Virus record (IMG/VR): IMGVR_UViG_3300017605_000626
Location: 64,001 to 124,036 of that record
Strand: one strand, 5' to 3'
Source of the DNA: a virus
DNA: 60,036 nucleotides
Both the position numbers and the translations under genes were made by a program. Below are positions 1,264 to 54,938 of the stretch, piece by piece. The number at the start of each line of letters is the position of its first letter. Position 1 is the first letter of the stretch. The notes under the pieces were generated by a model. It was given only the letters and a program-made list of their open reading frames with translations, made no database searches and was not told the DNA's origin.

Positions 1264-2223
1264 TTGGCAGAGCCGTTGGTTACAATAGTAATAGCTTCTA
1301 GAAAGAATGCTCAAGGACTCTGGATGAGCATCAATAATATTGAGTGGGAGTTAAAAGAAGCCGGAATAGACTTTCAGTTTGCTATAGTAACAAATGATGA
1401 TGGCAAGTTAGATACTGATTCTAGGCAAGTTATTGAAATGCTTAGAACTAAAACAGGTTACTTAAAATACTACAGACATAACGAACTACCAATGACGCCG
1501 CAACAGGCGCGACAAGAGGCAATTGACAATACAAACTCTAAATATATTATTTGTTTTGATAATCATGTCCAGCTATGTCCTGGCTTTTTTAAAAGATTTT
1601 TTCACGATTGGGAAAGTACAGAAGCAGACATACTTCATTCGGCGACACAATATTACATAAACGATTTTATTTGTTATAACTATAAGTTACAACTAAAAAA
1701 AGATTTTTGGGGAGTATCAGACAGTTTTGCTTTAAATGAATATAAGCCCTTTAAAATAGGGGCGGCTGGTCATGGTGGAGTTGGATTTAAAAGAAGTTCT
1801 TTTGAGAAATACAGCGGATATAAATTATCAAGTTCTTTTGTGGGCTATTCAGGTGAGGAATTAACAGCAGATTTAGGTACTTGGTTACAAGGTGGTAATG
1901 TTTATATAAGTCCAAGATCAATTCATAGACATTGGGCTGCAACGACTAGGGGTTACGGAAGACATCACACAGAAGATTTTTATAAAAATTTATTTTCTTG
2001 TGCTTTTATACTCGCTAATGAAACAGCCGATGACTATGTTTATACAATGATGGATCATTTTAAGTCTTGCTCTAAACCTTATTTAAAGAAGCCAATGTTT
2101 GATATATTAATGGAAGCAAAAGAAAGAAGTAAACAAGATGCTAATTGGATTAAGGAAAGACGAGTAAGAACAATAGAAGAACAACTAGAAAAGTTCGAAT
2201 TAGAAGAAGTTGCTTATAGATAA
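1264..2223 (+). CDS. GT-A fold glycosyltransferase (GT2-like), coupled to the portal gene
   Basis: The N-terminus PLVTIVIASRKNAQGLWMSI is the first beta-strand and nucleotide-binding start of a GT2-like transferase. The DxD position appears as ICFDNHV near residue 100, a DNH variant. A long central part contains GAAGHGGVGFKRSSFE and the C-terminus is a charged helix. The start is TTG, supported by AAAGGATG about eight bases upstream and by the strand motif beginning at residue 5. Its TAA overlaps the portal ATG (TAATG), so the two are translationally coupled. Sugar donor and acceptor are unknown; the location suggests a virion protein could be the target, but this is inference. Confidence 0.8.
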   Translation: MAEPLVTIVIASRKNAQGLWMSINNIEWELKEAGIDFQFAIVTNDDGKLDTDSRQVIEMLRTKTGYLKYYRHNELPMTPQQARQEAIDNTNSKYIICFDNHVQLCPGFFKRFFHDWESTEADILHSATQYYINDFICYNYKLQLKKDFWGVSDSFALNEYKPFKIGAAGHGGVGFKRSSFEKYSGYKLSSSFVGYSGEELTADLGTWLQGGNVYISPRSIHRHWAATTRGYGRHHTEDFYKNLFSCAFILANETADDYVYTMMDHFKSCSKPYLKKPMFDILMEAKERSKQDANWIKERRVRTIEEQLEKFELEEVAYR

Positions 2224-8486: not shown

Positions 8487-9173
8487 GTGACAATAGAAGA
8501 AAGATTTTTAAGCAAAGTAAATAAGAATAGTGGAAGGTTTTGTAAAGTAAAAGGTACGGAATGTTGGGAATGGTTAGCCGCTAAAGACATCGCTGGTTAT
8601 GGTGTATTTGGTAGTAAAGTTAGCCAAAGAGCACATAGATTTAGTTGTTGGTTTTATAACACTACTAGGGAAGAAGAAAAATTAGAGTTATTGGTTTGTC
8701 ATACATGTGACTGGACATCTTGTGTAAATCCTGATCATCTGTTTCTTGGCACTGATTATGATAACATGAGAGACAAGGTAAAAAAGGGACGAGCTAAAGG
8801 ACAAGCATCTGGTTCTGAACATAGTCTATCTAAGATTACTGATGGTGATGTAGAGTTAATGTTTGAATGGAATCAGTTAGGAAAATCAAATTTAGAGATA
8901 GCTGAAAAATTTAATTTAGACCCCTCTAATGTTTCTCTTATTTTAAGAGGCAAAAGATGGGGCCATGTAGAAACGCCTTATCGTTACCAAGTAAAGGATA
9001 GTAGAAGATTTACAGATCAAGAAATAATTGAGATATTTAAATCTTACAGAGAGTTAAAGAGTTATAAGAAAGTAGCTAAAAGATTTGATACAGTTCAGTC
9101 TGTTATTTATAATATAATCAAAAGAATCAAATATCCTCATGTGAGTGTTCCAGAGGTTTTATTAGTAGGTTAA
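8487..9173 (+). CDS. HNH homing endonuclease with C-terminal helix-turn-helix regions
   Basis: Residues about 20-105 form an HNH_3-type nuclease: conserved CWEW, the AHRFSCW stretch, then VCHTCDWTSCVNPDHLFLG with the catalytic His and the zinc Cys pairs, ending in DYDNMRDKVKKGR. Two helix-turn-helix-like segments follow (around GKSNLEIAEKFNLDPSNVSL and SYKKVAKRFDTVQSVIYNI), which would bind DNA. The GTG start is set by AAGGAG eight bases upstream. The gene sits between tube and chaperone genes with its own promoter and terminator, as expected for a selfish free-standing endonuclease. Confidence 0.88.
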   Translation: MTIEERFLSKVNKNSGRFCKVKGTECWEWLAAKDIAGYGVFGSKVSQRAHRFSCWFYNTTREEEKLELLVCHTCDWTSCVNPDHLFLGTDYDNMRDKVKKGRAKGQASGSEHSLSKITDGDVELMFEWNQLGKSNLEIAEKFNLDPSNVSLILRGKRWGHVETPYRYQVKDSRRFTDQEIIEIFKSYRELKSYKKVAKRFDTVQSVIYNIIKRIKYPHVSVPEVLLVG

Positions 9174-36819: not shown

Positions 36820-37401
36820 TTAATCCTTTTCTACATCTATAAGTAATATTCTAATTCCGCTAAATTCGTATTGAGGGTGTGTAGAATTAGCTCCTGTTAA
36901 AGCCCCTTCCTCTTTAAAATCCCAATCTTTTGGTAATCCTAAAATATCTATAAACATTCTATGATCTACTTTATCATAGATATCACAAGTAATAATTAGC
37001 CGTTTACGTGCATGGTTAAGAAGGTTGTTAAAGGCTTTCTTTATTGTTTTAGGATTTATAAAATCTTCTACTGTTGATATATTTATAACACAATCATATT
37101 CAAATGGTGATGGAGTTAATATATCGTATTTCCAATAATTTTCAAAATCAAGTGGGTTTTTGTCAAATAAATCAGAGTTTGTGAAGTGATCACCAACGCC
37201 TCTTCTAATTGCACTTATACTTTCAGCAAAGTCCCAATGTAATTTAGAAAAGCCACAAGAAGTATTATGTACGCTGTATAAGCCATTAACATTTTCTACA
37301 ATTTGGTCGTATACGTATTTATATTCGAATCTTCTTGACCAATTAGGTGTATTGTCTTGTTTATCATTAATATTTAAAAATCTACATTCTTTTACTTTCA
37401 T
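36820..37401 (-). CDS. Methyltransferase-like protein in the glycan island
   Basis: I place the start at the ATG 37401, which overlaps the stop of the upstream epimerase gene (ATGA), rather than 17 codons earlier inside that gene. The 193-residue protein has a Rossmann-like strand DCVINISTVEDFIN followed by FNNLLNHARKRLIITCDI, resembling motifs post-I and II of class I SAM methyltransferases. A Gly-rich SAM loop is not obvious. Coupling to sugar genes suggests modification of a sugar, but this is weakly supported. Confidence 0.5.
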   Translation of the reverse strand: MKVKECRFLNINDKQDNTPNWSRRFEYKYVYDQIVENVNGLYSVHNTSCGFSKLHWDFAESISAIRRGVGDHFTNSDLFDKNPLDFENYWKYDILTPSPFEYDCVINISTVEDFINPKTIKKAFNNLLNHARKRLIITCDIYDKVDHRMFIDILGLPKDWDFKEEGALTGANSTHPQYEFSGIRILLIDVEKD

Positions 37402-38363
37402 ATGCCTCTTTCTGCTAAAAATGCAAAGGTTTCTTCTTGAGACATTAAACAATCATTATCATTAGATTGTCTATTATTTTTTGCTACTTCTTTGCCGTGT
37501 TTGTTGTTTACTACCACGCACATACCTACATTTTTTAACGTAGTAAGATCAAATTTTTCTTCTGTGCTTACTAGTGTTTCGTGTATTTTTTCGAAATGGT
37601 TAGGTATCCCAATTTTAATTGCTTTTTCTGGTAGCCCATATTTTTTAACAAAGTATCTTGCTATGTCTATTATTTTAGCAGACTTAACAGCTATAGGAAC
37701 CACTATTCCATTTACATCTTCAAATAAAGCATTTGCTATTAGATAAACTGCTTGATTTACATCTAATAAGAACCTTGTCATAGCTATGCTATTAACGGTT
37801 ATTTCCTTTTTATCTTGGCATTGCTTTTTAAATAAAGGTATGACTGATCCTGTTGAGTTAATTACGTTTCCATATCTAACCGAGCAAAATTTAATGTTAG
37901 CTCCTTTTCTGTTACTTTCTTGGGTTATAATCTGTTCACAAATCTTTTTACTGCTCCCATATATAGAGCACGGATTAACCGCTTTATCAGTAGATATAAA
38001 ACAAACTTTTCTAACAAATGGCGCTACCTTATTACAAGTTTCAATGACGTTTAATGTGCCATCTACATTTGTTTTTAAGCACTCAGAATAATTATCTTCA
38101 CAGGCTTTTATTTGTTTTAGAGCATGGGCAATAACTACATTTGAGGGTTTTTCTTCAGATATTACTTTGCATAGTCTGGTATTATCTCTTACATCTCCGA
38201 TAATAGTTTTTAATTTTATTTTAGTATTTTTAAATTTTTCTTTGAGTATAAGATGTTTGGCTTCATCTCTAGAATAAACTATGTAGTCATGTGTTGTTCC
38301 TAGTGTCCCTATTATAGCGGTACCTAGAAATCCTGCCCCTCCTGTTATTAGAATTTTTGACAT
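37398..38363 (-). CDS. UDP-GlcNAc C4,6-dehydratase/C5-epimerase-like enzyme (PseB/CapE/WbjB/WbvB family)
   Basis: The 321 residues carry the NAD site ILITGGAGFLGTAI at the N-terminus, IKACEDNYSECLKTNVDGTL, the signature FISTDKAVNPCSIYGSSK with the Thr-Asp-Lys and YxxxK catalytic residues, and RYGNVINSTGSVIPLFKKQ. The C-terminal EKIHETLVSTEEKF fits the CapE/FnlA side of the family. These enzymes oxidise UDP-GlcNAc, remove water at C4/C6 and epimerise at C5, giving a UDP-4-keto-6-deoxy hexosamine. A matching reductase and 2-epimerase are found 1.7 and 6.7 kb upstream in the same operon. Confidence 0.85.
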   Translation of the reverse strand: MSKILITGGAGFLGTAIIGTLGTTHDYIVYSRDEAKHLILKEKFKNTKIKLKTIIGDVRDNTRLCKVISEEKPSNVVIAHALKQIKACEDNYSECLKTNVDGTLNVIETCNKVAPFVRKVCFISTDKAVNPCSIYGSSKKICEQIITQESNRKGANIKFCSVRYGNVINSTGSVIPLFKKQCQDKKEITVNSIAMTRFLLDVNQAVYLIANALFEDVNGIVVPIAVKSAKIIDIARYFVKKYGLPEKAIKIGIPNHFEKIHETLVSTEEKFDLTTLKNVGMCVVVNNKHGKEVAKNNRQSNDNDCLMSQEETFAFLAERGI

Positions 38364-39224
38364 TTATTTTATTCTCCATCCTAAGTTATCATTGCAGATA
38401 TTAAAATACTTAGGTTGATATATTATTTCTCTGTATATACATTTATATACAAAATCTTTTACCCATGCTTCTTTTTCTTTGTGGAACTCTTCACTTTCTT
38501 TCGGGTTCCAGCCAGAAGATCTACAATAGTGTAGAAATTTGTTACCAAATAATTCTACATCAAATCCTTCTTTATAGCAAGCTTTAATTTCTTTTGGCAG
38601 CAAATTAGTGTTAACATTTCTTTCGCTTATATGCCAGCTTTGATTAAGCAACCAGCATTTTTTCTTTACTTCTGGATATTTATTAAAGTAATTATAAAAC
38701 CCGCCACCAGTATCTAAATGTGTTTCAGTTCCTTCTACTTTAATACCTTCCCAATCTAGTTCTTCCGGAGATTTGATATGCTTCATATTTAAGAAAACAA
38801 TTGTAGGGGTGATGTATTCATGGCCTTTTCTGTGCTGTGGTGCCCCCATTATACTCCAGTCATTGTCTCCCAATTTTAAGAAATCTAATAAGAAGATATC
38901 TCCGTCCATCACACCAACTATATCTAATCCTTTTATTCTAGAGGCGCTGTTCTGCCACACGTTATTAATTGCACTGGCATGATGTGCTCCAGCGTAATCA
39001 AATGGAATATCTGAGTATGTTTGAAGTGAGATTAAGTTTAATTCAGTCGCCGCCTTATTAATTTCTAGCCTCATTTCATTAGTTCTAGCATTGTTTACTA
39101 TTATTAATTGAAATGGATTTTGAAGAAATTTATAGAAACTATCAAACTGCCACTTTATAAAATGTGGTTTATTATAGTGGATACTATAAAGAGTTATGTG
39201 CGGAGACAGATTTTGTTTGATCAT
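38364..39224 (-). CDS. GT-A glycosyltransferase with DGD metal motif
   Basis: The 286-residue protein starts with a GT-A nucleotide-binding strand (ITLYSIHYNKPHFIKWQFDS) and has the DxD motif in VGVMDGDIFLLDF near residue 115. The C-terminal HYCRSSGWNPKES segment closely parallels HFGRGSNWDSSD of the gene at 47405-48253, so the two are paralogues. The start overlaps the reductase gene by 41 bases, and no better internal start is seen. Confidence 0.8.
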   Translation of the reverse strand: MIKQNLSPHITLYSIHYNKPHFIKWQFDSFYKFLQNPFQLIIVNNARTNEMRLEINKAATELNLISLQTYSDIPFDYAGAHHASAINNVWQNSASRIKGLDIVGVMDGDIFLLDFLKLGDNDWSIMGAPQHRKGHEYITPTIVFLNMKHIKSPEELDWEGIKVEGTETHLDTGGGFYNYFNKYPEVKKKCWLLNQSWHISERNVNTNLLPKEIKACYKEGFDVELFGNKFLHYCRSSGWNPKESEEFHKEKEAWVKDFVYKCIYREIIYQPKYFNICNDNLGWRIK

Positions 39225-40044
39225 ATTTTTCTGCTAGTTCTTTTATTTGTTGATAAATAGTGGGTATTTCAAAGTTTTCTATAAACCATTGATTGTTAGT
39301 AGATAGTGTTCTATCTATATTTCTTTTGCAGAAACTGGGTATTGGCTCTTTATTTGCTTTGAATTCTCTGTTTATTGCACAAAGCAATTCATATTTAGAA
39401 ATAGAATGAGGACTGAATACATGGAATATACCATATGAGAATAAATTTCTTTCTATAGTATGTCCAATTATTTTGCTTAATTGAATGGTGCTTAAACCAT
39501 TCCAATAGTTATTGATATAGCCCATTGGTTGTGTTTTAATTTCATGTAAGAACCAGTCTAATAGACCAAACTTCTTTTCAGAAAGTTCTTGTCCTATGAA
39601 ACTAGTTCTAATTACCATAGATTTACTAGGAAATTCCCCATTTAATTTTGAATGGCCATATGCTGATACTGGATCTGGTTTGTCTGCCTCTGTATACCTT
39701 CCCCTTTTGCCACTAAATACACAGTCTGTAGAGACTTGTATTAGATTTATACCATACTGGCCACATTTAAATGCTAATTTTCTAGCAAAAGAATTATTTA
39801 CTAGGTTTAAAGTGTTGTAATCATGTGGTTTTTGTGGTATTACTCCTATACAATTAATTATAAAATCATCTTTTTTTATTTTATAAAGAGGAAGTAAGTT
39901 GCTAGCTGCATTTTTCTTAGTAGCATCTAAACCTCTTCTTGTAATGCCCCGTATTTCTGTTAGTCCTTTAATTTTTCTATGCCTTAAATGATCTACTAGT
40001 GTGTGCCCTAAATTTCCAGTGGAGCCTAGAATTATGATTTTCAT
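39184..40044 (-). CDS. RmlD-like NAD(P)-dependent sugar reductase
   Basis: The 286 residues show the extended-SDR start MKIIILGSTGNLGHTLVDHL, the IQVSTDCVFSGKRGRYTEAD motif and YGHSK (YxxxK), all features of dTDP-4-dehydrorhamnose reductase relatives. In N-acetyl-6-deoxy-L-hexosamine routes the 4-keto product of a WbvB/CapE-type enzyme is reduced by such a protein. Lack of the cupin domain found in CapF/FnlB favours an L-RhaNAc (WbvR-type) over an L-FucNAc product. Product specificity is inferred. Confidence 0.82.
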   Translation of the reverse strand: MKIIILGSTGNLGHTLVDHLRHRKIKGLTEIRGITRRGLDATKKNAASNLLPLYKIKKDDFIINCIGVIPQKPHDYNTLNLVNNSFARKLAFKCGQYGINLIQVSTDCVFSGKRGRYTEADKPDPVSAYGHSKLNGEFPSKSMVIRTSFIGQELSEKKFGLLDWFLHEIKTQPMGYINNYWNGLSTIQLSKIIGHTIERNLFSYGIFHVFSPHSISKYELLCAINREFKANKEPIPSFCKRNIDRTLSTNNQWFIENFEIPTIYQQIKELAEKYDQTKSVSAHNSL

Positions 40045-40045
40045 T

Positions 40046-40294
40046 TCATCCTTGATTTGTTTTGTTTTTATTTATCTTTTTATAGCTGTGTCTTTTAGAA
40101 GGAGCGGTTCCGCCTTCTCCAAATGTTCCCATAAATTTAGCGGATATTTGCACTTCATTTCTTGTAGTTTTGCCTCCACATTCATCACAAGTAAAGATTA
40201 CATTTTTTCTTTCTTCAGATTCTTTATATGTTAGAAACAGTTTATCTAATTGGTGCCCACACTTTTTACAAGTGTAGGTAAATATTGGTGACAT
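40046..40294 (-). CDS. FmdB-like zinc ribbon protein
   Basis: The 82 residues begin MSPIFTYTCKKCGHQLDKLF, matching the FmdB regulatory-protein pattern, with the second pair at TCDECGGKT. The C-terminal half is basic and disordered. It probably binds nucleic acid or serves as a small regulator. It abuts the endonuclease gene. Confidence 0.75.
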   Translation of the reverse strand: MSPIFTYTCKKCGHQLDKLFLTYKESEERKNVIFTCDECGGKTTRNEVQISAKFMGTFGEGGTAPSKRHSYKKINKNKTNQG

Positions 40295-40872
40295 TATATA
40301 TTATCCCATCGTTTTTTATTTACTATTCTAGAAATAGTTGATTGATTTACTTTGTATTTTCTTGCTAATTCTATGGTTGTCATGTGACTATAGAGTTTTC
40401 TTATGGTTATTATATCTTCTGCTGTGAATCTAGTAGTCCTTTTATTTTGATTTTGTTCTTGTTGTGTTGTCCATCTACAATTGTCAGGGCTATAACCTAG
40501 ACTATTGTTGATACGTTCTAAGCTGTGGTCATCAGATGGCCTGTCTCCCATATCATCATAAAAATTCCAGAAGCTTTCTCTCCATCTATTGCAGACTGTT
40601 ATGCCCCTACCACCATAGTTTTTGTAGGCTTTTCCTTTTGTATTGTAACACCTAGTTATCATACTTCTCCATACTTTATGTAATGGAGTTTTAACTAAAC
40701 ATCTACAACTAGTTGAATGTCCAGTTATTAGCATAATGTTTGATGTCTCAACAGTTTTACCACAGGCGCAAAGACATTCTACTATTGTGTAGCCTTTGTA
40801 GTTTTTATTTAAAATCTTTGTTACCTTTAATCTTCTAAAGGTTTGTCCTTCCTTTACTTCACTACCAAACAT
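40294..40872 (-). CDS. Homing-endonuclease-like protein with zinc module and HTH
   Basis: The N-terminal 60 residues (GQTFRRLKVTKIL, CLCACGKTV, TSCRC) are a zinc-binding module also present in the endonucleases at 49551 and 54378. The central region RCYNTKGKAYKNYGGRGI, VCNRW, SLERINNSLGYSPDNCRWTT is typical of a phage HNH-like nuclease family. The C-terminus has an HTH (MTTIELARKYKVNQSTISRI). It should cut DNA at a phage target site and thus be a mobile gene. Confidence 0.78.
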   Translation of the reverse strand: MFGSEVKEGQTFRRLKVTKILNKNYKGYTIVECLCACGKTVETSNIMLITGHSTSCRCLVKTPLHKVWRSMITRCYNTKGKAYKNYGGRGITVCNRWRESFWNFYDDMGDRPSDDHSLERINNSLGYSPDNCRWTTQQEQNQNKRTTRFTAEDIITIRKLYSHMTTIELARKYKVNQSTISRIVNKKRWDNI

Positions 40873-41395: not shown

Positions 41396-41583
41396 TACAT
41401 TATCCTTTTTATAATTGTTTGATATGGTTCTATGCCATATACCTTTATTAACTCAGCTACTCTTTCTGAGTGTGGACAAATTGATTTTTTTCCTTTAGGT
41501 GTTCTACATGGTTCATTTGTTAGTGCTTTACATTTAGGACAGTTTAATCTAGTTTTTGCATCTGAAAATATCCAGTTTACCAT
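41395..41583 (-). CDS. Small phage zinc-finger protein
   Basis: The 62 residues contain NCPKCKALTNEPCRTPKGKK followed by CPH, the CPxC-x-A-x(3)-PC-x-TP-x-G pattern of short phage or actinobacterial zinc-finger proteins thought to bind DNA. Both ends overlap neighbouring genes by a base. Confidence 0.65.
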   Translation of the reverse strand: MVNWIFSDAKTRLNCPKCKALTNEPCRTPKGKKSICPHSERVAELIKVYGIEPYQTIIKRIM

Positions 41584-42323
41584 TATTTTCTTTCCTTAGC
41601 TACGATTTGATTTTTATGAATTCTATAATGAACTAGTACTTGAGGAACAATACCTATTCTTGCTCCCTTATTTATTGATTTCTGCCACAGTAACAAATCT
41701 TCTAATGGTATAGCATCTTCATATGGGCCATATTTCCTCCAAAAATTCTTTGTATATGCTACACCTGGGTGGCATATTACATTGTGTCCCGCATTAAGTT
41801 CTTTCCAAACATCTCTATTAGACATTATAAGAGTATTATTGTCAGTGTCAATACCGTTTTCATTTTCTTCCACATATCTAAAATCAGATGATACCATATC
41901 ATACCTATTGTTTGCGATGAAATCTATTTGACTCATGAATCTTTCTTTGGAATAGTAATCATCTAAATTAGTGTTAAATACTACATTATAATGAGATTCA
42001 AATACAGGCTTAAGATCTGAGAAACAATAGAATAAAAGGAAGTTCATTGCATGAACATGATTAGGAAGAGGTTTGTGTATTCTTTGGTGTGTTGTGAAGT
42101 TTAATTTTCTTCCTAGTATATTGTGAAGAAATGTTTTCTTTTCTCCATACGATAGTTCAATTACATCGAAGTTTTTAAACGTTTGATTTTCTATAGATCT
42201 GACACACTTATCTATCCAATCTTTCTTATAAATTCTACTAATGTCTTTATGGTAGAAAATGACTGCATGTTTAGCAGTAGGTTCTTTGGGCACAAATTCT
42301 TTTACTAGGTCGTTATAAAGCAT
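41583..42323 (-). CDS. GT2-like glycosyltransferase
   Basis: The 246-residue protein has a GT-A start (KHAVIFYHKDISRIYKKDWI), SIENQTFKNFDVIEL as in GT2 enzymes, the acidic metal motif NTNLDDYYSKER near residue 120, and a C-terminal LEDLLLWQKSINKGARIGIV containing the ED catalytic-base region. It overlaps the upstream methyltransferase gene by 19 bases. Donor unknown. Confidence 0.78.
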   Translation of the reverse strand: MLYNDLVKEFVPKEPTAKHAVIFYHKDISRIYKKDWIDKCVRSIENQTFKNFDVIELSYGEKKTFLHNILGRKLNFTTHQRIHKPLPNHVHAMNFLLFYCFSDLKPVFESHYNVVFNTNLDDYYSKERFMSQIDFIANNRYDMVSSDFRYVEENENGIDTDNNTLIMSNRDVWKELNAGHNVICHPGVAYTKNFWRKYGPYEDAIPLEDLLLWQKSINKGARIGIVPQVLVHYRIHKNQIVAKERK

Positions 42324-43009: not shown

Positions 43010-43272
43010 TCCTGATAAATTAATATACCATCATCATGCTCATGTAAAAGTTCTACCGCGCTCACTCTTGGCATTTTAGACAGCAACTCTGCTAATAGAT
43101 GTGGATCATATTTATACTGATCAAAGCTATCAACTGCTGTTTCTATTAAGTCATTATTGTTGTAGCTATCACTTATAATTTCTTGATTTCTCCATACCCT
43201 AATTTTAAATTCTATGTCTCTAGTTTTATCTATCAGGAGAATATTAGTCATACTTTCTATTACTTTAGGCAC
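43000..43272 (-). CDS. Small protein of unknown function in the glycan island
   Basis: The 90 residues (TNILLIDKTRDIEFKIRVWR and following) look like a small alpha/beta domain. It overlaps both neighbours by a few bases, so it is probably co-translated with the methyltransferase. No motif is recognised. Confidence 0.55.
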   Translation of the reverse strand: MPKVIESMTNILLIDKTRDIEFKIRVWRNQEIISDSYNNNDLIETAVDSFDQYKYDPHLLAELLSKMPRVSAVELLHEHDDGILIYQEWP

Positions 43273-44194
43273 TTTTAAATACCTCTATATCCCTGCATAT
43301 TTCATCTTCTTGGGTTAATGTTCTTAACACACCATTACTAAATATTTCTCTATCTCCTAATAGATTGTGGTGATCTTTTAGATGAGCTAGCATATCATCA
43401 AAGGTAAAGTCTGAGAAATTTGTTTCTTGTATTCTTCTATACCAATGCATATAATCTTCACCTAAAGTCTTTTCTTTATTACTAATCCAATCTTTAGATG
43501 AACTGAATACCATGTGCCAGACTAAATTATCTATTGTGTGCCCGAACACACCCATTTCATTGGTCATGCCAAGTATTTTGTTCATGGATAAGCTTAATTT
43601 AGCTCCCATATTAATTTGGTCTGAGTAGAAGTTTGCTACCACACCATTATCTGCGTTTTGCTCGAACTCACAATTTGCTACTGGAGTAAAATTCACTTTG
43701 TATCTGTTTTCTGGGCGTAGAAATCCCACCGCCCTAGATAAACTTCTAACCTCTCTAGTTTTCCCTACTCTGAAGTAGTTGTTTATCTGTACAAAATTAC
43801 CCCATTTAGCATATCCTGGATGCATGTGTAGTCCAGTTTGTTTGCCTACGAATAATAGATCGTATTTTTCTATTAGTTTAATAGGAGCAAGCAGCCAGTT
43901 TGGATGAATAGGAATACAATCTACATCCAAGCTACAGAAGTAGTATCCCTCCGCCATAGAAGCAGCTACGTCTATCGGCCAGCCCGCATCTATTCTTGGC
44001 GCTTTTATTACTCTAGCAAAAGAAGAATATTCTATCATAAGATCATTAGGTATACCAGATTCTGTTTGATCTATAACTAATACTTCAGTTGGTAAAGTAG
44101 TTCTATGAAACTTTCTAATCTGGTGAAGATTTCTCTTTAAAAATACTAGCTCTTCTTCATAAGCTAGTGGTATTACTACACTTGCTGTGCGCAT
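43265..44194 (-). CDS. GT2-like glycosyltransferase with DVD motif
   Basis: The 309 residues start MRTASVVIPLAYEEELVFLK, a GT2 nucleotide-binding strand. YYFCSLDVDCIPIHPNW near residue 90 supplies the DxD. HPGYAKWGNFV and the Asn/Gly-rich middle are acceptor-side features. It overlaps the 2-epimerase gene by 19 bases, a sign of tight coupling between sugar synthesis and transfer. Confidence 0.8.
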   Translation of the reverse strand: MRTASVVIPLAYEEELVFLKRNLHQIRKFHRTTLPTEVLVIDQTESGIPNDLMIEYSSFARVIKAPRIDAGWPIDVAASMAEGYYFCSLDVDCIPIHPNWLLAPIKLIEKYDLLFVGKQTGLHMHPGYAKWGNFVQINNYFRVGKTREVRSLSRAVGFLRPENRYKVNFTPVANCEFEQNADNGVVANFYSDQINMGAKLSLSMNKILGMTNEMGVFGHTIDNLVWHMVFSSSKDWISNKEKTLGEDYMHWYRRIQETNFSDFTFDDMLAHLKDHHNLLGDREIFSNGVLRTLTQEDEICRDIEVFKSA

Positions 44195-45309
44195 GAATTC
44201 TCCTTAAATATTATCTTTCTGTATAATATATCTGCAATTCTTTGTCCAGATCGACCATCACCAAAAGGAGAATCTATAGTTGCATTTAAAGATCTTTGAT
44301 ATCTTTCTTCATGATGAACTGTATAAAAACTTGCAAGTTCTCTTCTGAATGATTGTGGATCTTCACATAGTTTAGTCCCTGGAAATTTTAATACTTCTTC
44401 TCTTTCAGTGGTATCTCTTAGCACAAACAGCGGTCTTTTTATTCTTGTTATTTCTTCTTGTATGCCGCCAGAATCACTACAAACAAACCAAGAATTCATA
44501 CATTGTTTTACAAACTTATGATATGGTAAAGGGCTTTGTATAGTTACTTTATGAGAAGCTTCACAATGGTGCAAAGCTTCTTGTACTTGTCTTCCAACTT
44601 CAGGATTAGGGTGAAGAGGCAATAAACAATGAAATTCATCATGTATTTTTAGAAAGTTTAGAAGCTCTAGAAAGTATCTATATATTCTTTTGTATTTAAT
44701 ATTTTCTCTACGATGCATTGTAAAGGTAATGTAAAGTTTTTTTATTTCTTCTCTCTTGCCAAGCCCTTCTATTACGCGGTCAACGGCATCTAGAGCTGTA
44801 CTACCAGTAACCCACACATTCCTAGTTATATTTTCTATAAAAAGATTTTCTTTATTTTGTTTTGTAGGGCAAAAATGGTATTTAGATAGTTGGCTTATTA
44901 ATATCCTATTTATTTCTTCAGGAAAAGGACTATTATGGTTGTGTGTCCTTAGACCTGCTTCTACATGTGCTACTGGTGTTTCTAGATTAGAAGCACATAT
45001 AGCAGATGCAGTAGCAGTAGTTGTATCTCCTTGTACTATGATAAGATCTGGTTTATCTTCTTCAAGAATTGGTTCTAGTTTTTGTATAACAGAAGCAAAG
45101 ATAGTATTAAGAGTAGATTTAGGTGCCATTATTCCTAAATTTATATCAGATGCTAATTCTAGCAAAGAATCTTCTGCAATTTGTAGATGTTGTCCAGTGT
45201 TTATTAATCTAATATCTAGATTATCATAAGGCTTTAGGGCTCTAATTACAGGTGATATTTTTACAACTTCTGGCCTTGTTCCATATATGAATGCTACTTT
45301 CTTTTTCAT
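44176..45309 (-). CDS. UDP-GlcNAc (or 6-deoxy-HexNAc) 2-epimerase, WecB family
   Basis: At 377 residues it matches full-length WecB. Conserved segments are AFIYGTRPEVVKISP (residues 6-20), IVQGDTTTATASAI, VAHVEAGLRTHNHNSPFPEE, INRILISQLS and CSDSGGIQEE. The fold is GT-B-like. WecB converts UDP-GlcNAc to UDP-ManNAc; relatives WbjD/WbvD/CapG epimerise UDP-6-deoxy-L-HexNAc at C2 as the last step of UDP-L-FucNAc or L-QuiNAc synthesis. Presence of the dehydratase and reductase in the same operon favours the latter use. Confidence 0.88.
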   Translation of the reverse strand: MKKKVAFIYGTRPEVVKISPVIRALKPYDNLDIRLINTGQHLQIAEDSLLELASDINLGIMAPKSTLNTIFASVIQKLEPILEEDKPDLIIVQGDTTTATASAICASNLETPVAHVEAGLRTHNHNSPFPEEINRILISQLSKYHFCPTKQNKENLFIENITRNVWVTGSTALDAVDRVIEGLGKREEIKKLYITFTMHRRENIKYKRIYRYFLELLNFLKIHDEFHCLLPLHPNPEVGRQVQEALHHCEASHKVTIQSPLPYHKFVKQCMNSWFVCSDSGGIQEEITRIKRPLFVLRDTTEREEVLKFPGTKLCEDPQSFRRELASFYTVHHEERYQRSLNATIDSPFGDGRSGQRIADILYRKIIFKENSCAQQV

Positions 45310-45453: not shown

Positions 45454-45726
45454 CTAGTTAATATATTCTGTTTTAGTATTTTGCAATATCTTAAATTGTT
45501 CTAATTCTATCATAGTGCGAAGATAAAGTCCATCACATAACATTAATAATTCTTTTTGCATAGATTTGGAACGACACATTGATAATAGTATCAACTGTAA
45601 ACTTTCGCTATAACCTTGATAAAACTCAACACTTTTTTCTTTAGGAAATTTTAGTTCGACAAAGGCTTTTATGTTTGTATCAATTTTTTCCCAAGTCTCT
45701 CTTAGAACATTCAGGATAGTTGTCAT
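45454..45726 (-). CDS. Small helical protein of unknown function
   Basis: The 90 residues are predicted helical (TILNVLRETWEKIDTNIKAF onward) with no membrane segment or metal motif. It shares one base with the stop of the GT6 gene. Function unknown. Confidence 0.5.
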   Translation of the reverse strand: MTTILNVLRETWEKIDTNIKAFVELKFPKEKSVEFYQGYSESLQLILLSMCRSKSMQKELLMLCDGLYLRTMIELEQFKILQNTKTEYIN

Positions 45727-46472
45727 TAATCTTCTTTCCTTAATTCACTGTGATTTTTGTTTAATGCTATTATTCTTTTTTTGAATGGAAGATTCCATTT
45801 TATATGTTCACTATCCTCTGGATAAATATAGCCACTATCTAATGTTTTAACTTCTTGATCAATTAGATATCTATTAAAATAACTTTCATCGTGCCACTTT
45901 GCTATAATATTAACACATTCATCTAAGGCCAGCATTGTGGATATTTCTTGGCACATTGATAAGTATTTAGCAGAAGAAGCGCCATTGAATCCCCCTGCCC
46001 AATATGTTTTTCTTTGGGCTGGTGATACAAAAGCGACGGAAGACATACTTGTTTCCCAATCTCCACCGCCCTGATAATATCCGGGATGTTTTACAGCAAC
46101 TATTTGATTAGGGTTATCTGGTAATACCTCTTCATCTATAATAGACTCTACTTTCATATCCGCATCTATGTAGTACAGATAGTCAAAGTTCTTTAGATGT
46201 TCTTTGTGTTTATTAAAGATATTATAGCGATGTAGCGTCATGTATGGCCAAGGTTTATGTGTTACTTCAAACGCACTAACATGTACTCTATTATTACAAT
46301 TTTTTGCGGTGTGTTCTTTGAAGTTATATATTTGGCTATACGGAGCATCTGTGAATAACATTAATCCAATTCTATGTTCAGGTAAAAAATTAGTAGCAAT
46401 AGACGTAAATAGAGGGTTTATAAAATCATTGTATCCTCTTGTTGCTATAACTAATATTCCTATCTTTTTCAT
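45726..46472 (-). CDS. GT6-family glycosyltransferase (ABO blood-group transferase homologue)
   Basis: The 248 residues carry the GT6 catalytic core: a start strand IGILVIATRGYNDFINPLF, HRIGLMLFTD, KPWPYMTLHRYNIF, the metal motif YYIDADMKV (D103, D105), KHPGYYQ, WAGGFNGAS, and the diagnostic WHDESYFNRYL at 193-203, ending with LNKNHSELR. The same blocks occur in human ABO transferase (DVDM, HPGFYG, GGFFGG, WHDESHLNKYL, KNH). GT6 enzymes add Gal or GalNAc in alpha-1,3 linkage, usually to fucosylated galactose. Bacterial members often have NxN at the metal site; this one has DxD. An alpha-1,2-fucosyltransferase gene lies 1.8 kb upstream. Confidence 0.88.
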   Translation of the reverse strand: MKKIGILVIATRGYNDFINPLFTSIATNFLPEHRIGLMLFTDAPYSQIYNFKEHTAKNCNNRVHVSAFEVTHKPWPYMTLHRYNIFNKHKEHLKNFDYLYYIDADMKVESIIDEEVLPDNPNQIVAVKHPGYYQGGGDWETSMSSVAFVSPAQRKTYWAGGFNGASSAKYLSMCQEISTMLALDECVNIIAKWHDESYFNRYLIDQEVKTLDSGYIYPEDSEHIKWNLPFKKRIIALNKNHSELRKED

Positions 46473-46483
46473 TTACTAGTTCC

Positions 46484-47401
46484 TTAGTCCGTTCTATCTG
46501 CTGATAATTCAAATCTTATTGGTTCTATATTTTCTAATCTATCTACATAAAATTGACTTTCATTTATAGAATACTTACTAGTTGATTTTTTATTTGCTTT
46601 TTCTTTTTTCTTAGGCTCATCTGTATAATAGTTAAACAACTTTTTCCAAAAATAATCTTTTTGAGTTTTGTTGTTATTTTCCTCTGGATTGAAGTACCAG
46701 AAGGCTCCAATATTTTTTATTGTAATTCCACTAGGAAATGAATTGCTCATTTCATTTCCAAGAAACATTGGTAAATCATGGGTTGATCTGTTTATATCCA
46801 TGCTGCGCCAATAATTTGCATAGACTTTAGGGTTGTTTTTAAAATAAACATAGAATAATCCGCCAGGTTTTAATTGGCATCCTTTTATTTTTGCACTTCT
46901 AGCGTCTAATTCGTATACATTAGAATGATCGTGAGCTAATACTAATCTTGGCCAGATATACGTGTACTTTTCTGTGGTTATTGCCAATCCTTCTATTGAG
47001 GATCTGTTATTTATAGAGTATTGGTTTGATAATTTTAAAGCAGAATAAGCTAGAAAATTAGCATCTAATATTAAGTTGTTTCTTTCGTTAGAACATAGAT
47101 TTTGTACAACGTAATTAAAGGCTCTTTCGTATGTTATTGTGTTTTTACAATAAAATTGTTTTGGAACATTGATTATGTCCGTGAATTTAGATGTGTCTCC
47201 CCATACTTGGTATTTATTATACAGTTCTGCTGATAACTTTTCATACTTCTCCTCCATTCCTTCCTCTTCTGGCAGGGCTTTAATTAAGAAAGATCTTACG
47301 TTAAATTTAGTATGTACTTTAAGAGTTATAACTTGCATTATAGCTCTTTCAAGTTCTTCTAAACTAAGGAGAATTGTAAAAGAATCTGCTGCTGATGACA
47401 T
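46484..47401 (-). CDS. Unknown protein between glycosyltransferases
   Basis: I do not recognise this 305-residue protein. It has a helical N-terminal third, a central alpha/beta part (NLILDANFLAYSALKLSNQY, YIWPRLVLAHDHSNVYELDA) and a C-terminal aromatic segment (GAFWYFNPEE) before a Lys-rich tail. Its place between GT6 and GT-A genes suggests a glycan-related function, perhaps a divergent transferase, but I see no DxD or Rossmann loop. Confidence 0.5.
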   Translation of the reverse strand: MSSAADSFTILLSLEELERAIMQVITLKVHTKFNVRSFLIKALPEEEGMEEKYEKLSAELYNKYQVWGDTSKFTDIINVPKQFYCKNTITYERAFNYVVQNLCSNERNNLILDANFLAYSALKLSNQYSINNRSSIEGLAITTEKYTYIWPRLVLAHDHSNVYELDARSAKIKGCQLKPGGLFYVYFKNNPKVYANYWRSMDINRSTHDLPMFLGNEMSNSFPSGITIKNIGAFWYFNPEENNNKTQKDYFWKKLFNYYTDEPKKKEKANKKSTSKYSINESQFYVDRLENIEPIRFELSADRTD

Positions 47402-47404
47402 TTA

Positions 47405-48253
47405 TTATAGAACCTCATTCATCCAGTAATTTAAGAAAGCCACTTTTCTAGTAAAATATGATTGATCACTACTGTCCCAATTAGATCCTCTACCAAAATG
47501 CAACCAAGCATTATCTATAATCCAGAATTTAAATGCAGGATCATGCAGATGTTGAATAGATTTGGGTATTTTGTTGCCCACATCTAAATTCAAAGAATAT
47601 TCGTCTGGTTCTAGATGAGAATCTTTTATTAGGAAATGCAGCATAGCTCCAGAATCGAAAGGCTTATATCCTGCATTGAATTTTCTCCAGTATTCATCCC
47701 ATGTAAAACCATGTTCTTCGTCACAGATAAAGAAATCATTGGTTTCAGCATGAATCATGGCACCACGGAAATCGACAGATTTATATAGTCCATACATTCT
47801 AAATATAGGACCATTAAATACTATAAGTCCTGGCCAAAGATATGTTATTTCTTCACTGCCTTGTTTAAGCCCACACATATAGTAATCTAATTTACGGGTT
47901 ACTACACTAGGTTTTGTTATAGGAAATATGTCAAAATCAACTATGATATCACAAGTACTGTTTTTGTTTGGTACTATATTTCTAAATATCCAATTTAAAC
48001 TTTCTTGGTGTGATGTTCCAACTCTATCAAATTTGTTGTGTGTGGGTCTTATACATTCAATACCTCTTTCATTACAGTATGAGAAAATATGGTTGGCTTC
48101 ATTATCATTTCTGCCGTTGTTTATTACAACGAAGTTTACTACATTCTTTTCGCCGCCTTCTTTTGAAGGCATAGTAAGAAATTTATCAAATGATTTTAGT
48201 TGTAAGTCTAAAAAAGTTGTATTTATTAGGGTAGAGTAGACTGTATATTCCAT
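47405..48253 (-). CDS. GT-A glycosyltransferase, paralogue of 38364-39224
   Basis: The 282 residues have a GT-A architecture with the DxD in CDIIVDFDIFPITKPS near residue 105, LWPGLIVFNGP in the acceptor region and WLHFGRGSNWDSSDQS at the C-terminus. These match DGDIF, YITPTIVFLNM and LHYCRSSGWNPKES in the protein encoded at 38364-39224, so they share ancestry. Donor and acceptor are unknown. Confidence 0.75.
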   Translation of the reverse strand: MEYTVYSTLINTTFLDLQLKSFDKFLTMPSKEGGEKNVVNFVVINNGRNDNEANHIFSYCNERGIECIRPTHNKFDRVGTSHQESLNWIFRNIVPNKNSTCDIIVDFDIFPITKPSVVTRKLDYYMCGLKQGSEEITYLWPGLIVFNGPIFRMYGLYKSVDFRGAMIHAETNDFFICDEEHGFTWDEYWRKFNAGYKPFDSGAMLHFLIKDSHLEPDEYSLNLDVGNKIPKSIQHLHDPAFKFWIIDNAWLHFGRGSNWDSSDQSYFTRKVAFLNYWMNEVL

Positions 48254-48256
48254 AGG

Positions 48257-49081
48257 TTAGGGCATTAACATCGTTCCAGGATAATATAAATCATGTTTGG
48301 TAGGGCCTTTAGGACCAAACCATTTAGCGGGGGTTACTACTAATTTATTAGCGTGATCACTAAGCCATGATCCCCACCAGCTAAAAGAGCTGTTAGCCAT
48401 AATATGATACTTACATTTAGACATTACATAAAGAGATTTGATATCACTCTTTTCATTTATAGGTATGTAGTTACAGTTTGGGAAAGATTCTTTAAACCAT
48501 CTTTCAGTAAAGTACATATCATCTGAAAATAAAAGAAACATTTTAGCTTTGGTTGTGCCGTTGGTTAGAGTTTTTACAAAATTAACCGCTTTTTTGTAGT
48601 AATCCGTTTTAATTAAATTGGTGTGGTATTCCTCTAAATCTAGGTAATCTCCGCGCCTCACATGTAGGGACACTAAAGTTATATCATCGTGGTTTAATAT
48701 AGGATTATTTTCATGTATAATTTTTCTTAGCACTGGTAATAAAGAAAACGTATTTCTTATTTCTTCTTTACAATCTTTGAAGTATTTTTCAGATTGAAAG
48801 TAACCCATTAGATCATAGTTAAATGATCTGTCGCTAAGATCTAGGTGTTTATAACTAAAATCCGCCTCTCTTACTATTTTGTACCCTTGATAATCAAGAG
48901 ATTTTTCATGATATTGTTCTAGATTAGGCAATCCATTTTCGAAATATACGCCATAGTTCCAAATAGGGAAGTAGGCATCTTTCTTATTTGCTCTAGCTAG
49001 ACCTATTGTTGACGCAATTTCGAATAAACAATTGCCGAGGCGGCCCATCTTACCTAAACGAGAGAATGTAACGATTGACAT
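48257..49081 (-). CDS. GT11 alpha-1,2-fucosyltransferase
   Basis: The 274 residues show the GT11 motifs: GRLGNCLFEIASTIGLAR at the N-terminus, VSLHVRRGDYLDLE (the HxRRGD GDP-fucose site), LLFSDDMYFTERWF, and MSKCKYHIMANSSFSWWGSW followed by VTPAKWFG. The family transfers L-fucose from GDP-fucose in alpha-1,2 linkage, typically to galactose. No GDP-fucose synthesis genes are in the window, so the donor would come from the host or from genes elsewhere. Confidence 0.9.
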   Translation of the reverse strand: MSIVTFSRLGKMGRLGNCLFEIASTIGLARANKKDAYFPIWNYGVYFENGLPNLEQYHEKSLDYQGYKIVREADFSYKHLDLSDRSFNYDLMGYFQSEKYFKDCKEEIRNTFSLLPVLRKIIHENNPILNHDDITLVSLHVRRGDYLDLEEYHTNLIKTDYYKKAVNFVKTLTNGTTKAKMFLLFSDDMYFTERWFKESFPNCNYIPINEKSDIKSLYVMSKCKYHIMANSSFSWWGSWLSDHANKLVVTPAKWFGPKGPTKHDLYYPGTMLMP

Positions 49082-51397: not shown

Positions 51398-52060
51398 TTA
51401 TTTAATACAATCCTCATAACTTACAATTTTTTCCTGAATGTCACTATAGGATTTTCTTTGTGAAACTAGGGCAGGATAGAATGAATAAGCTTTAATTTGA
51501 TTGTTGTCTTGAAGTTCAGCGTACATAATATCAAGTTGTTTATTTATATTCTCTGCCCAATTATCATTTTTACCTTTTATTTTGTTTATTATAACAGAAT
51601 AGGCCGAGCTTTTCAATGCATAAGCACTAGTGGTAAGTGACCAATTACATTTCATTACAAATTTATTTATAAGATGATCTCTTTTTCTTGTCCAACTAAT
51701 TTCATTGTGGTTGCTTCCCAAGTATAGTTGTTGCCAGTTATTAGGCACTAATTTATATCTTTCAGAGAAGTAGAAATCTATGCCTGGGTTTATCAGTGCG
51801 TCATCTTCTAGTATTAAAACAGAATCTAACTTCATAAGTTGTGCTAGTTCTATTATTTGGAGATGGCTTACTATGCATCCTATTTCTGCTGGTTTCAATC
51901 CCTTAGTAAAACCCCAAGGATTCCCTTTAACAGCTATTCTTCTTGTAGCTTTTATGCCTAGCTTATCTAGCTGTGCTTCCATTTGCTGGCGTCTGTCAGT
52001 GCGGTGCTCTAGGTTTATATAGAATATATGGGGGAAGTACCTGTTTAAGATTGAAGACAT
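51398..52060 (-). CDS. GT25-family glycosyltransferase
   Basis: The 220 residues show the GT25 pattern: IFYINLEHRTDRRQQM at the N-terminus, GCIVSHLQIIELA, SVLILEDDALINPG (the acidic metal motif) and LYLGSNHNE. This family contains LPS beta-galactosyltransferases and collagen galactosyltransferases. The protein ends at a TAA immediately followed by the endonuclease relic, so its own C-terminus may have been altered by that event. Confidence 0.85.
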   Translation of the reverse strand: MSSILNRYFPHIFYINLEHRTDRRQQMEAQLDKLGIKATRRIAVKGNPWGFTKGLKPAEIGCIVSHLQIIELAQLMKLDSVLILEDDALINPGIDFYFSERYKLVPNNWQQLYLGSNHNEISWTRKRDHLINKFVMKCNWSLTTSAYALKSSAYSVIINKIKGKNDNWAENINKQLDIMYAELQDNNQIKAYSFYPALVSQRKSYSDIQEKIVSYEDCIK

Positions 52061-52833: not shown

Positions 52834-53104
52834 TCTCTACTTTCAATAGACTTTTCTTTGTGGGTATAATTTTTTCTATGTCCCATACAGGCCCTGTTTC
52901 TATAAAGTTTTCTACTAGAATATCTGCGTCTGTAACTATACTAGTTACTTTAGTTATTGTATATATTCTTTTAACATCATTGATGAATAGTGCGTGTAGT
53001 CCCACCTTGAGCTCAGGAGTGTTTATTAACCATTCTTGTCTATGGTCTAGAACGTCATCATCAAAATTTTCAAATTCAACTAATATAGCTTGTTTATTAA
53101 TCAT
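52811..53104 (-). CDS. Small beta-rich protein of unknown function
   Basis: The 97 residues include DVLDHRQEWLINTPELKVGL and GLHALFINDVKRIYTITKVT, suggestive of a small SH3- or OB-like barrel. No conserved motif is recognised. It overlaps the HD-domain gene by eight bases. Confidence 0.5.
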   Translation of the reverse strand: MINKQAILVEFENFDDDVLDHRQEWLINTPELKVGLHALFINDVKRIYTITKVTSIVTDADILVENFIETGPVWDIEKIIPTKKSLLKVENETTKAF

Positions 53105-53639
53105 CTGTGCAAATGTCCAATTCTCTCCATCTCTTAAGAAACAGTTCTTTACCTTGTTTAAAGCTTTTCGCAGGCTCCCAATCTATTTTCTTTAATATCT
53201 TCTTAGCTCCAATGCTATCTTCATCGCCCCAATATACTACACGTTCTATCAAATATGCAAGCTCATCAAATTCTTTAACTCTTTCCCAAGCCGCCTTATC
53301 ATTAAAGATTTTATACTTATTTAAGATAAGTAGTGTAGCACCATGTTCTAATTTTCTATAGTTAGGAAGAAGTATCTTTAAAGGTCTGGGCACTTCAACA
53401 TAGTAACTTTCTCCAGTGTCGTGCCCTAGCCCTAAAGGCTTGTATTTCTTTTCTTTAACTAAGTAACTGACCAATCTACTGTGGTCGTTTATAGGGCAAA
53501 ATCTTTTTGAATGCCCACCATATCGACATAACTGTGAGCCAGAATGCGCTATATCCTCTATAGTTACATTGTCAATAGTCTTATGAAAGTTAGATAAATC
53601 TATATAGTTATTACTTACTGTTCGTATAATATTACTCAT
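53097..53639 (-). CDS. HD-domain phosphohydrolase-like protein
   Basis: The 180 residues contain CRYGGHSKRFCPINDHSRLV and GLGHDTGESYYVEVPRPLK, with the spaced histidines, the HD doublet and the E-x-x-x-x-x-x-P-x-K pattern of YfbR-like or phage HD-domain proteins. Known relatives hydrolyse deoxynucleoside monophosphates. Substrate here is not known. The tRNA array begins just upstream. Confidence 0.7.
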   Translation of the reverse strand: MSNIIRTVSNNYIDLSNFHKTIDNVTIEDIAHSGSQLCRYGGHSKRFCPINDHSRLVSYLVKEKKYKPLGLGHDTGESYYVEVPRPLKILLPNYRKLEHGATLLILNKYKIFNDKAAWERVKEFDELAYLIERVVYWGDEDSIGAKKILKKIDWEPAKSFKQGKELFLKRWRELDICTDD

Positions 53640-54377: not shown

Positions 54378-54938
54378 TTAATTAATTGCAGCTATTAATT
54401 TAGCTAGTTCTATAAATCTTTCTTGAGATAAACACATTTTCATATAATTAATATCTTTGTGAACCCATTGTATGTTATCCATTGTGTATCCTTTTGAAGA
54501 ATCAATTCTATCTAAAGAAGCTGTGTTTTCCCCATTGGCTAGCTTTTTAGAATTTTCGGCAAATTCTATAGGAAGTCCTGTTAATTTGCATTTTTTATCT
54601 TGTGCTATAAATAAGTTATAGGCATCTTCTATGGTTATTTCAATTGGAATATTTCTAGTTCTAGCGGTAGCTTTAATTCTACTCCAAATTGATCCTGATA
54701 GTTCTTTATAGCCATTAAATTGTGGATGATTTTGTCTCATTCTTGGCCAAATATTTTTTAAGCGTGAGCAACCACAAGATTTTGTTGGATATTTTTTTAC
54801 TTTTAACTTAGCTCCTATTACAGTTGTTAATTTTCCACAATCACATTTACATAAATAATATTTTCCTCTTTGAGTTTCTTTACGAATGTCATATACTTCT
54901 TCTAAAACCGTTAGTTGGTTGAATTTTAATCCTATCAT
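54378..54938 (-). CDS. HNH endonuclease with N-terminal zinc module
   Basis: The 186 residues start with the module seen in two other endonucleases here (FNQLTVLEE, CKCDCGK, KSCGCSR). The nuclease part has KCKLTGLPIEF, ASLDRIDSSKGYTMDNIQWV and HKDINYMK, an HNH/HNN-type metal finger. Its start lies 50 bases inside the end of the upstream gene, suggesting insertion there. It is probably a mobile endonuclease. Confidence 0.8.
   Translation of the reverse strand: MIGLKFNQLTVLEEVYDIRKETQRGKYYLCKCDCGKLTTVIGAKLKVKKYPTKSCGCSRLKNIWPRMRQNHPQFNGYKELSGSIWSRIKATARTRNIPIEITIEDAYNLFIAQDKKCKLTGLPIEFAENSKKLANGENTASLDRIDSSKGYTMDNIQWVHKDINYMKMCLSQERFIELAKLIAAIN

Follow-up and report, generated by a model that had tools for sequence, protein, structure and literature searches.

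We analyzed a 60,036-nt window of virus DNA (bases 64001–124036 of the 124,036-bp record IMGVR_UViG_3300017605_000626) whose minus strand carries a GT11 gene and a GT6 gene (GT, glycosyltransferase), the families that build the human H and A/B antigens, inside one four-gene run. Successive action of GT11 and GT6, as a functional pair, is well supported by genetic evidence, namely their linkage across phages, their strand agreement and their fusion in bacteria. The first-pass annotation of this DNA had proposed from the sequence that the two enzymes work together, and this core idea is now better supported than sequence alone allowed. Recurring together in many phages, the pair is a real module and probably a working one. 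In the window, the gene order is GT11, P47, P46 and GT6, with intergenic gaps of 3, 3 and 11 nt:

48257..49081, minus strand: GT11, a predicted fucosyltransferase of 274 amino acids that opens the run (PF01531, E 1.7e-19; PHROG 2644, 1e-49; HxRRxDY and NSSFSWW motifs)
47405..48253, minus strand: P47, a GT-A glycosyltransferase of an unnamed GT6-associated family, with DFD at the metal position (AlphaFold2 and Foldseek)
46484..47401, minus strand: P46, a divergent P47 paralogue (phmmer match to the paralogue P38, 3.8e-5; iterated family search; alignment)
45726..46472, minus strand: GT6, a predicted metal-dependent alpha-1,3-N-acetylgalactosamine (GalNAc) or possibly galactose (Gal) transferase of 248 amino acids (PF03414, E 5e-23; closest solved structure BoGT6a, PDB 4ayj, E 3e-30)

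We quantified the linkage of the two genes by collecting GT6 relatives. They were present in 71 phage records, the named ones being mostly cyanophages and environmental phages, and an alignment-based scan of IMG/VR returned at least 578 viral relatives, of which we retained the top 80. Once near-duplicates and short loci were discarded, 62 viral GT6 loci remained, which we compared with 65 control loci centred on a different phage sugar gene (CapE-like). GT11 was at most 10 kb from GT6 in 53 of the 62 loci, compared to 10 of the 65 controls (Fisher P = 3.6e-16), and in 40 of 53 loci when GT6 was clustered at 80%. Because the loci were picked by likeness to the window's GT6, these rates may not extend to all phage GT6s. 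Across the 80 loci there were 76 GT11 matches, every one on the strand of GT6, and the nearest GT11 was upstream of GT6 in 49 cases and downstream in 17. In long records (63–248 kb) with GT6 and GT11 both present, the two were at most 10 kb apart in 17 of 18 cases, while random placement expects 3.5. Two bacterial genomes (L140 and L156) encode GT6 and GT11 as a fusion in a single frame.

The arrangement recurs in named phages. Prochlorococcus phage P-SSM2 (AY939844, PSSM2_257-271) has, like the window, GT11, two genes and GT6 on one strand with a GT25 gene close by, and its GT6 (DVD motif and AGG donor triad) is ~38% identical to the window's. Unlike the window, it carries a GDP-mannose dehydratase and nucleotide-sugar epimerases, and its two intervening genes do not match the P38/P47 profile. 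Synechococcus phage ACG-2014f (KJ019106) likewise has GT11 and GT6 on the same strand with two small genes between them and GT25 downstream, but its GT6 comes from another deep lineage with a QGC donor triad, and a GDP-mannose dehydratase is present. In phage DSL-LC02, GT11 directly adjoins GT6. We therefore rejected the idea that the pair is unique to the window's phage, as these three phages and most GT6 loci carry it. GenBank already annotates the GT11 and GT6 genes of P-SSM2 and ACG-2014f as such. Our literature search, which covered mainly open-access papers, found no paper on GT11-GT6 pairing in phages. The pair itself is a new example of an already known type; of most interest are the statistical linkage of the two genes, their bacterial fusions and the GT-A family that has no name. 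In the Escherichia coli O86 O antigen, WbwK (GT11) and WbnI (GT6) work in succession on one glycan (PMC4202792). That system is a chromosomal O-antigen locus with a known product, whereas the window's is a phage system known from its genes, on a record without O-antigen export genes.

Both enzymes passed their Pfam thresholds at the positions where the annotation had placed them. The GT6 protein scored 82 bits against PF03414 (cut-off 25) and 178 bits against NCBIfam NF041524, under that model's cut-off of 250. The residues that mark membership are all present: the catalytic E196, Y14, W75, R82, K239 and D103-A-D105. Bacteroides ovatus BoGT6a (PDB 4ayj, 4cj8), an A-antigen-type GalNAc transferase, is 33% identical to the window's GT6 and shares its key catalytic residues. 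Among the BoGT6a positions that contact UDP-GalNAc or the acceptor site (PMC3961637), Tyr13, Trp66, Thr70, Arg73, His122, Trp189, His190, Asp191, Glu192 and Lys231 are retained, while Asn69 is replaced by Met78. At the donor site, the human A transferase has Leu266/Gly268 and the human B transferase has Met266/Ala268 (PMC4202792). The window's donor triad, A159-G160-G161, equals the AGG of BoGT6a, a user of UDP-GalNAc, and by this analogy GalNAc would be the likelier donor than Gal. The mammalian alpha-1,3-galactosyltransferase, a member of the same GT6 family, acts on unfucosylated acceptors; consequently, acceptor choice cannot be read from a GT6 sequence.

The DxD metal site that the annotation had set against the NxN of many bacterial members is present as D103-A-D105. 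BoGT6a has an NAN motif and is metal-independent, while the Parachlamydia GT6 is reported to be metal-dependent (PMC3961637). Because DAD replaces NAN, as in the Parachlamydia-type enzyme, the window's GT6 is predicted to require a metal. DxD is not a peculiarity of this protein, since 87 of the 88 aligned phage-group GT6s share it. A GT6 phylogeny had been suggested as a check. With 126 GT6s in the tree, the window's enzyme lies in a mainly phage DxD clade (50 rows from phages and 8 from bacteria; support 95/85), and the bacterial NxN clade that includes BoGT6a and gut bacteria stands apart from it. A third lineage consists of the ACG-2014f-type cyanophages. The window's enzyme is on a long branch, whose precise position is uncertain. 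Separately, a single 962-amino acid chain from a Dysgonamonadaceae genome (L112:9971-12856) combines GT6, GT2 and GT4/GT1 domains.

The GT11 protein scored 71 bits against PF01531 (E 2e-19, cut-off 23.9). It contains the motifs HVRRGDY and NSSFSWWGSW, and HxRRxDY and NSSFSWW are conserved among its phage relatives. The GT11 family includes at least one alpha-1,3-fucosyltransferase, HhFT2 (PMC4202792), so the linkage cannot be read from the sequence; it is probably alpha-1,2.

The two genes between GT11 and GT6 were indeed found as annotated, one of them encoding a GT-A transferase. No Pfam, NCBIfam or PHROG model matched P47, with CAZy outside the scope of the search, and 8 of 45 P47 relatives had weak GT2 matches. 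A single-sequence model was unusable (predicted local distance difference test, pLDDT, 36), but remodelling with AlphaFold2 on 45 relatives yielded a pLDDT of 91.3 and a predicted template modelling score of 0.88. The Foldseek matches listed for this model, its nearest solved structures, are GT31, GT6 and other GT-A enzymes (E down to 1.2e-7, TM-scores ~0.3–0.5, ~10% identity). As modelled, P47 is a GT-A fold glycosyltransferase with a DxD motif. The annotation had also suggested that this transferase builds the Gal acceptor; the GT-A fold stands, but the structure fixes the fold and not the sugar, so P47 cannot be called a galactosyltransferase and the acceptor role is possible.

P47, P46 and P38 are mutual paralogues according to phmmer, an iterated family search and alignment, and none of the three has a name in the libraries that we used. 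The P38/P47 family occurred in 24 of 62 viral GT6 loci, compared to 3 of 60 and 6 of 65 loci at other anchors, and a domain of this family is fused to GT6 in some bacteria (L129, L155 and L132). Most residues conserved across the family are gone from P46, which has DAN in place of DxD and KPGG in place of DxGG in the alignment and is perhaps inactive. A profile comparison of P46 with A5 was circular, because P46 belongs to A5, and was not used.

Further nucleotide-sugar genes lie on the same strand of the window:

44176..45309, minus strand: WecB-type UDP-sugar 2-epimerase (TIGR00236, 317 bits, cut-off 210; PF02350, 4e-80)
39184..40044, minus strand: RmlD-like nucleotide-sugar reductase (PF04321, 1.6e-25; under the rmlD equivalog cut-off)
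38364..39224, minus strand: P38, a P47 paralogue that has DGD as its metal motif and is flanked by the RmlD-like and CapE-like genes (family comparison and alignment)
37398..38363, minus strand: CapE/PseB-like UDP-GlcNAc 4,6-dehydratase (PF02719, 8e-65; CapE structures matched; under the PseB and FnlA equivalog cut-offs)

Three enzymes, a dehydratase, a reductase and a 2-epimerase (CapE/F/G, WbjB/C/D), lead to UDP-L-N-acetylfucosamine (PMC5774825). The record's dehydratase, reductase and epimerase resemble this trio in kind, as judged from their sequences, although only the WecB-type epimerase clears a curated cut-off, with the dehydratase under FnlA/PseB and the reductase under rmlD. While the cyanophages above have GDP-fucose synthesis genes, the window's record instead has these three UDP-L-6-deoxy-N-acetylhexosamine-pathway-like genes. 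A GDP-mannose dehydratase gene lies beside GT6 in 33 of the 62 viral loci. The RmlD-like/P38/CapE-like block is a recurrent companion of GT6, as the order GT6, RmlD-like, P38, CapE-like is contiguous in three other loci (L027, L060 and L090), and it may supply a second L-sugar. The block as a clean replacement for GT11 was rejected, because these three loci also hold GDP-fucose genes and the contrast was not significant (P = 0.09). In two of them (L027:15009-17021 and L090:15000-17015), the GDP-mannose dehydratase query and the GDP-fucose synthase query hit one and the same frame of ~670 codons, an apparent fusion of both GDP-fucose enzymes in phages.

From the families, catalytic residues, linkage, fusions and GT-A fold, we infer the sugars, bonds, order and target of a glycan-building operon in which GT11 fucosylation is followed by GT6 capping with GalNAc, most likely on a virion protein. 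The chances that this full scheme is right or wrong seem to us evenly balanced. GT11 would act in the cytoplasm on a growing glycan that ends in galactose or a similar sugar, attaching fucose to that end, probably in alpha-1,2 linkage. GT6 would next use a divalent metal to add GalNAc, or less likely Gal, alpha-1,3 to the fucose-bearing sugar. P47 would attach a further sugar to this glycan, and that sugar may be the acceptor. The host, or phage sequence missing from the assembly, would supply GDP-fucose, given that the record lacks genes for it, and the phage may contribute its own branch derived from UDP-L-6-deoxy-N-acetylhexosamine. The finished glycan would most likely be placed on a virion protein.

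The lean towards virion glycans comes from the absence of export candidates and from transferase genes that are embedded in the structural operon. In a simple hydropathy test, no open reading frame of the record had more than three hydrophobic segments, leaving no candidate flippase, polymerase, ligase or polytopic initiating transferase; the glycan is therefore probably attached either to the virion or to a host precursor. A GT2 gene (window 1264–2223, plus strand; PF00535, 2e-9) overlaps the start of the portal gene, and a transferase-like gene (L012:9964-11064, plus strand), which has no family match and was called by its own sequence only, overlaps the end of the terminase gene.

Several observations count against the scheme. 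The acceptor-site Thr134 of BoGT6a is Asp138 in the window's GT6, a substitution found in none of the other 88 aligned phage-group enzymes. No GDP-fucose genes were found on the 124-kb record, where the sole GDP-mannose dehydratase Pfam match is the CapE-like gene, and the record may itself be a fragment. In the reciprocal test, GT6 was near 10 of 60 GT11 anchors, not significantly above control, and four long viral records have GT6 but not GT11. The target, too, was deduced from missing genes and gene order.

The cassette could alternatively alter the host surface by acting on lipid-linked lipopolysaccharide or O-antigen intermediates that the host then exports, so that receptors are changed and other phages are excluded. 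This is the customary reading of cyanophage sugar clusters (PMC9602691), it has a precedent in the GT11 and GT6 of the E. coli O86 O antigen (PMC4202792), and the window's soluble enzymes fit action on cytoplasmic lipid-linked precursors. Neither the missing lipid-linked initiating transferase, flippase, polymerase and ligase candidates nor the overlap of transferase-like genes with virion genes is decisive against it, and we regard host-surface remodelling as a serious rival, though more probably wrong than right. GT11 and GT6 could instead act on separate glycans or glycan parts, with their closeness reflecting a general sugar-gene island. The many other transferases in the region and the phages with GT6 but without GT11 would suit such an island, but GT11 is far rarer in other phage sugar islands (15% versus 85%) and the two bacterial GT6-GT11 fusions also argue against it, making separate action unlikely. 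Mimicry of animal ABO antigens, for immune or receptor purposes as the annotation had suggested, is very improbable and gained no support: the two families are those of the human pathway, but the window's GT6 belongs to the mainly phage DxD clade, those of its phage relatives that have names are mainly cyanophages and phages from the environment, the single human-faecal phage clone found (L009) carries an NxN GT6, and no evidence ties the record to an animal habitat.

The phage setting, also part of the annotation, was borne out by terminase, portal, major capsid and tape-measure genes and 14 tRNAs on the record. Scans of viral contigs with single proteins (GT6, WecB and TerL queries) found no relatives of the window's phage, and promoter-like and terminator-like sites were no more frequent than in shuffled sequence. 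Other transferase genes of the region are:

51398..52060, minus strand: GT25-family transferase (PF01755, 5e-11; GT25 also lies beside the pair in P-SSM2 and ACG-2014f)
43265..44194, minus strand: GT2-like transferase (weak PF00535 match, 0.00094, under the cut-off)
41583..42323, minus strand: GT2-like transferase (PF00535, 5e-4, under the cut-off; homologue in 27 phage GT6 loci)

Mutually related HNH/homing-endonuclease-like genes are scattered in the window (8487–9173, 40294–40872 and 54378–54938). The record also encodes a PurZ-type adenylosuccinate synthetase (L010:3791-5140, minus strand; phrog_1211, 2.4e-59), a PolA-family polymerase (L012:4600-6855, minus strand) and an HD deoxynucleoside monophosphate phosphatase (window 53097–53639, minus strand; phrog_318), which together are possibly a 2-aminoadenine (Z) genome set. 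Three frames outside the structural operon (L011:11213-12025, L011:18099-18587 and L012:3970-4590) look by eye like this phage's own major capsid protein and a tail protein, and are possible paralogues or fragments.

A broader proposal is that phages carry a mobile A-antigen-type module, often with GDP-fucose genes, GT11 and a DxD GT6, and an undescribed GT6-associated GT-A family acting in the same glycan, the window's phage being a variant with borrowed fucose and its own L-6-deoxy-N-acetylhexosamine branch; we put this forward tentatively and consider it doubtful as a whole. A count published in 2014 listed GT6 in two cyanophages (PMC3961637), compared to the at least 578 viral relatives in our IMG/VR scan. 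Should the pair indeed produce a glycan end with fucose and a GalNAc cap, ABO-type transferases that depend on metal would have a large reservoir in environmental phages. Because the linkage recurs, culturable cyanophages can serve to test this, and the same linkage draws attention to an unnamed GT-A family that some bacteria have fused to GT6.

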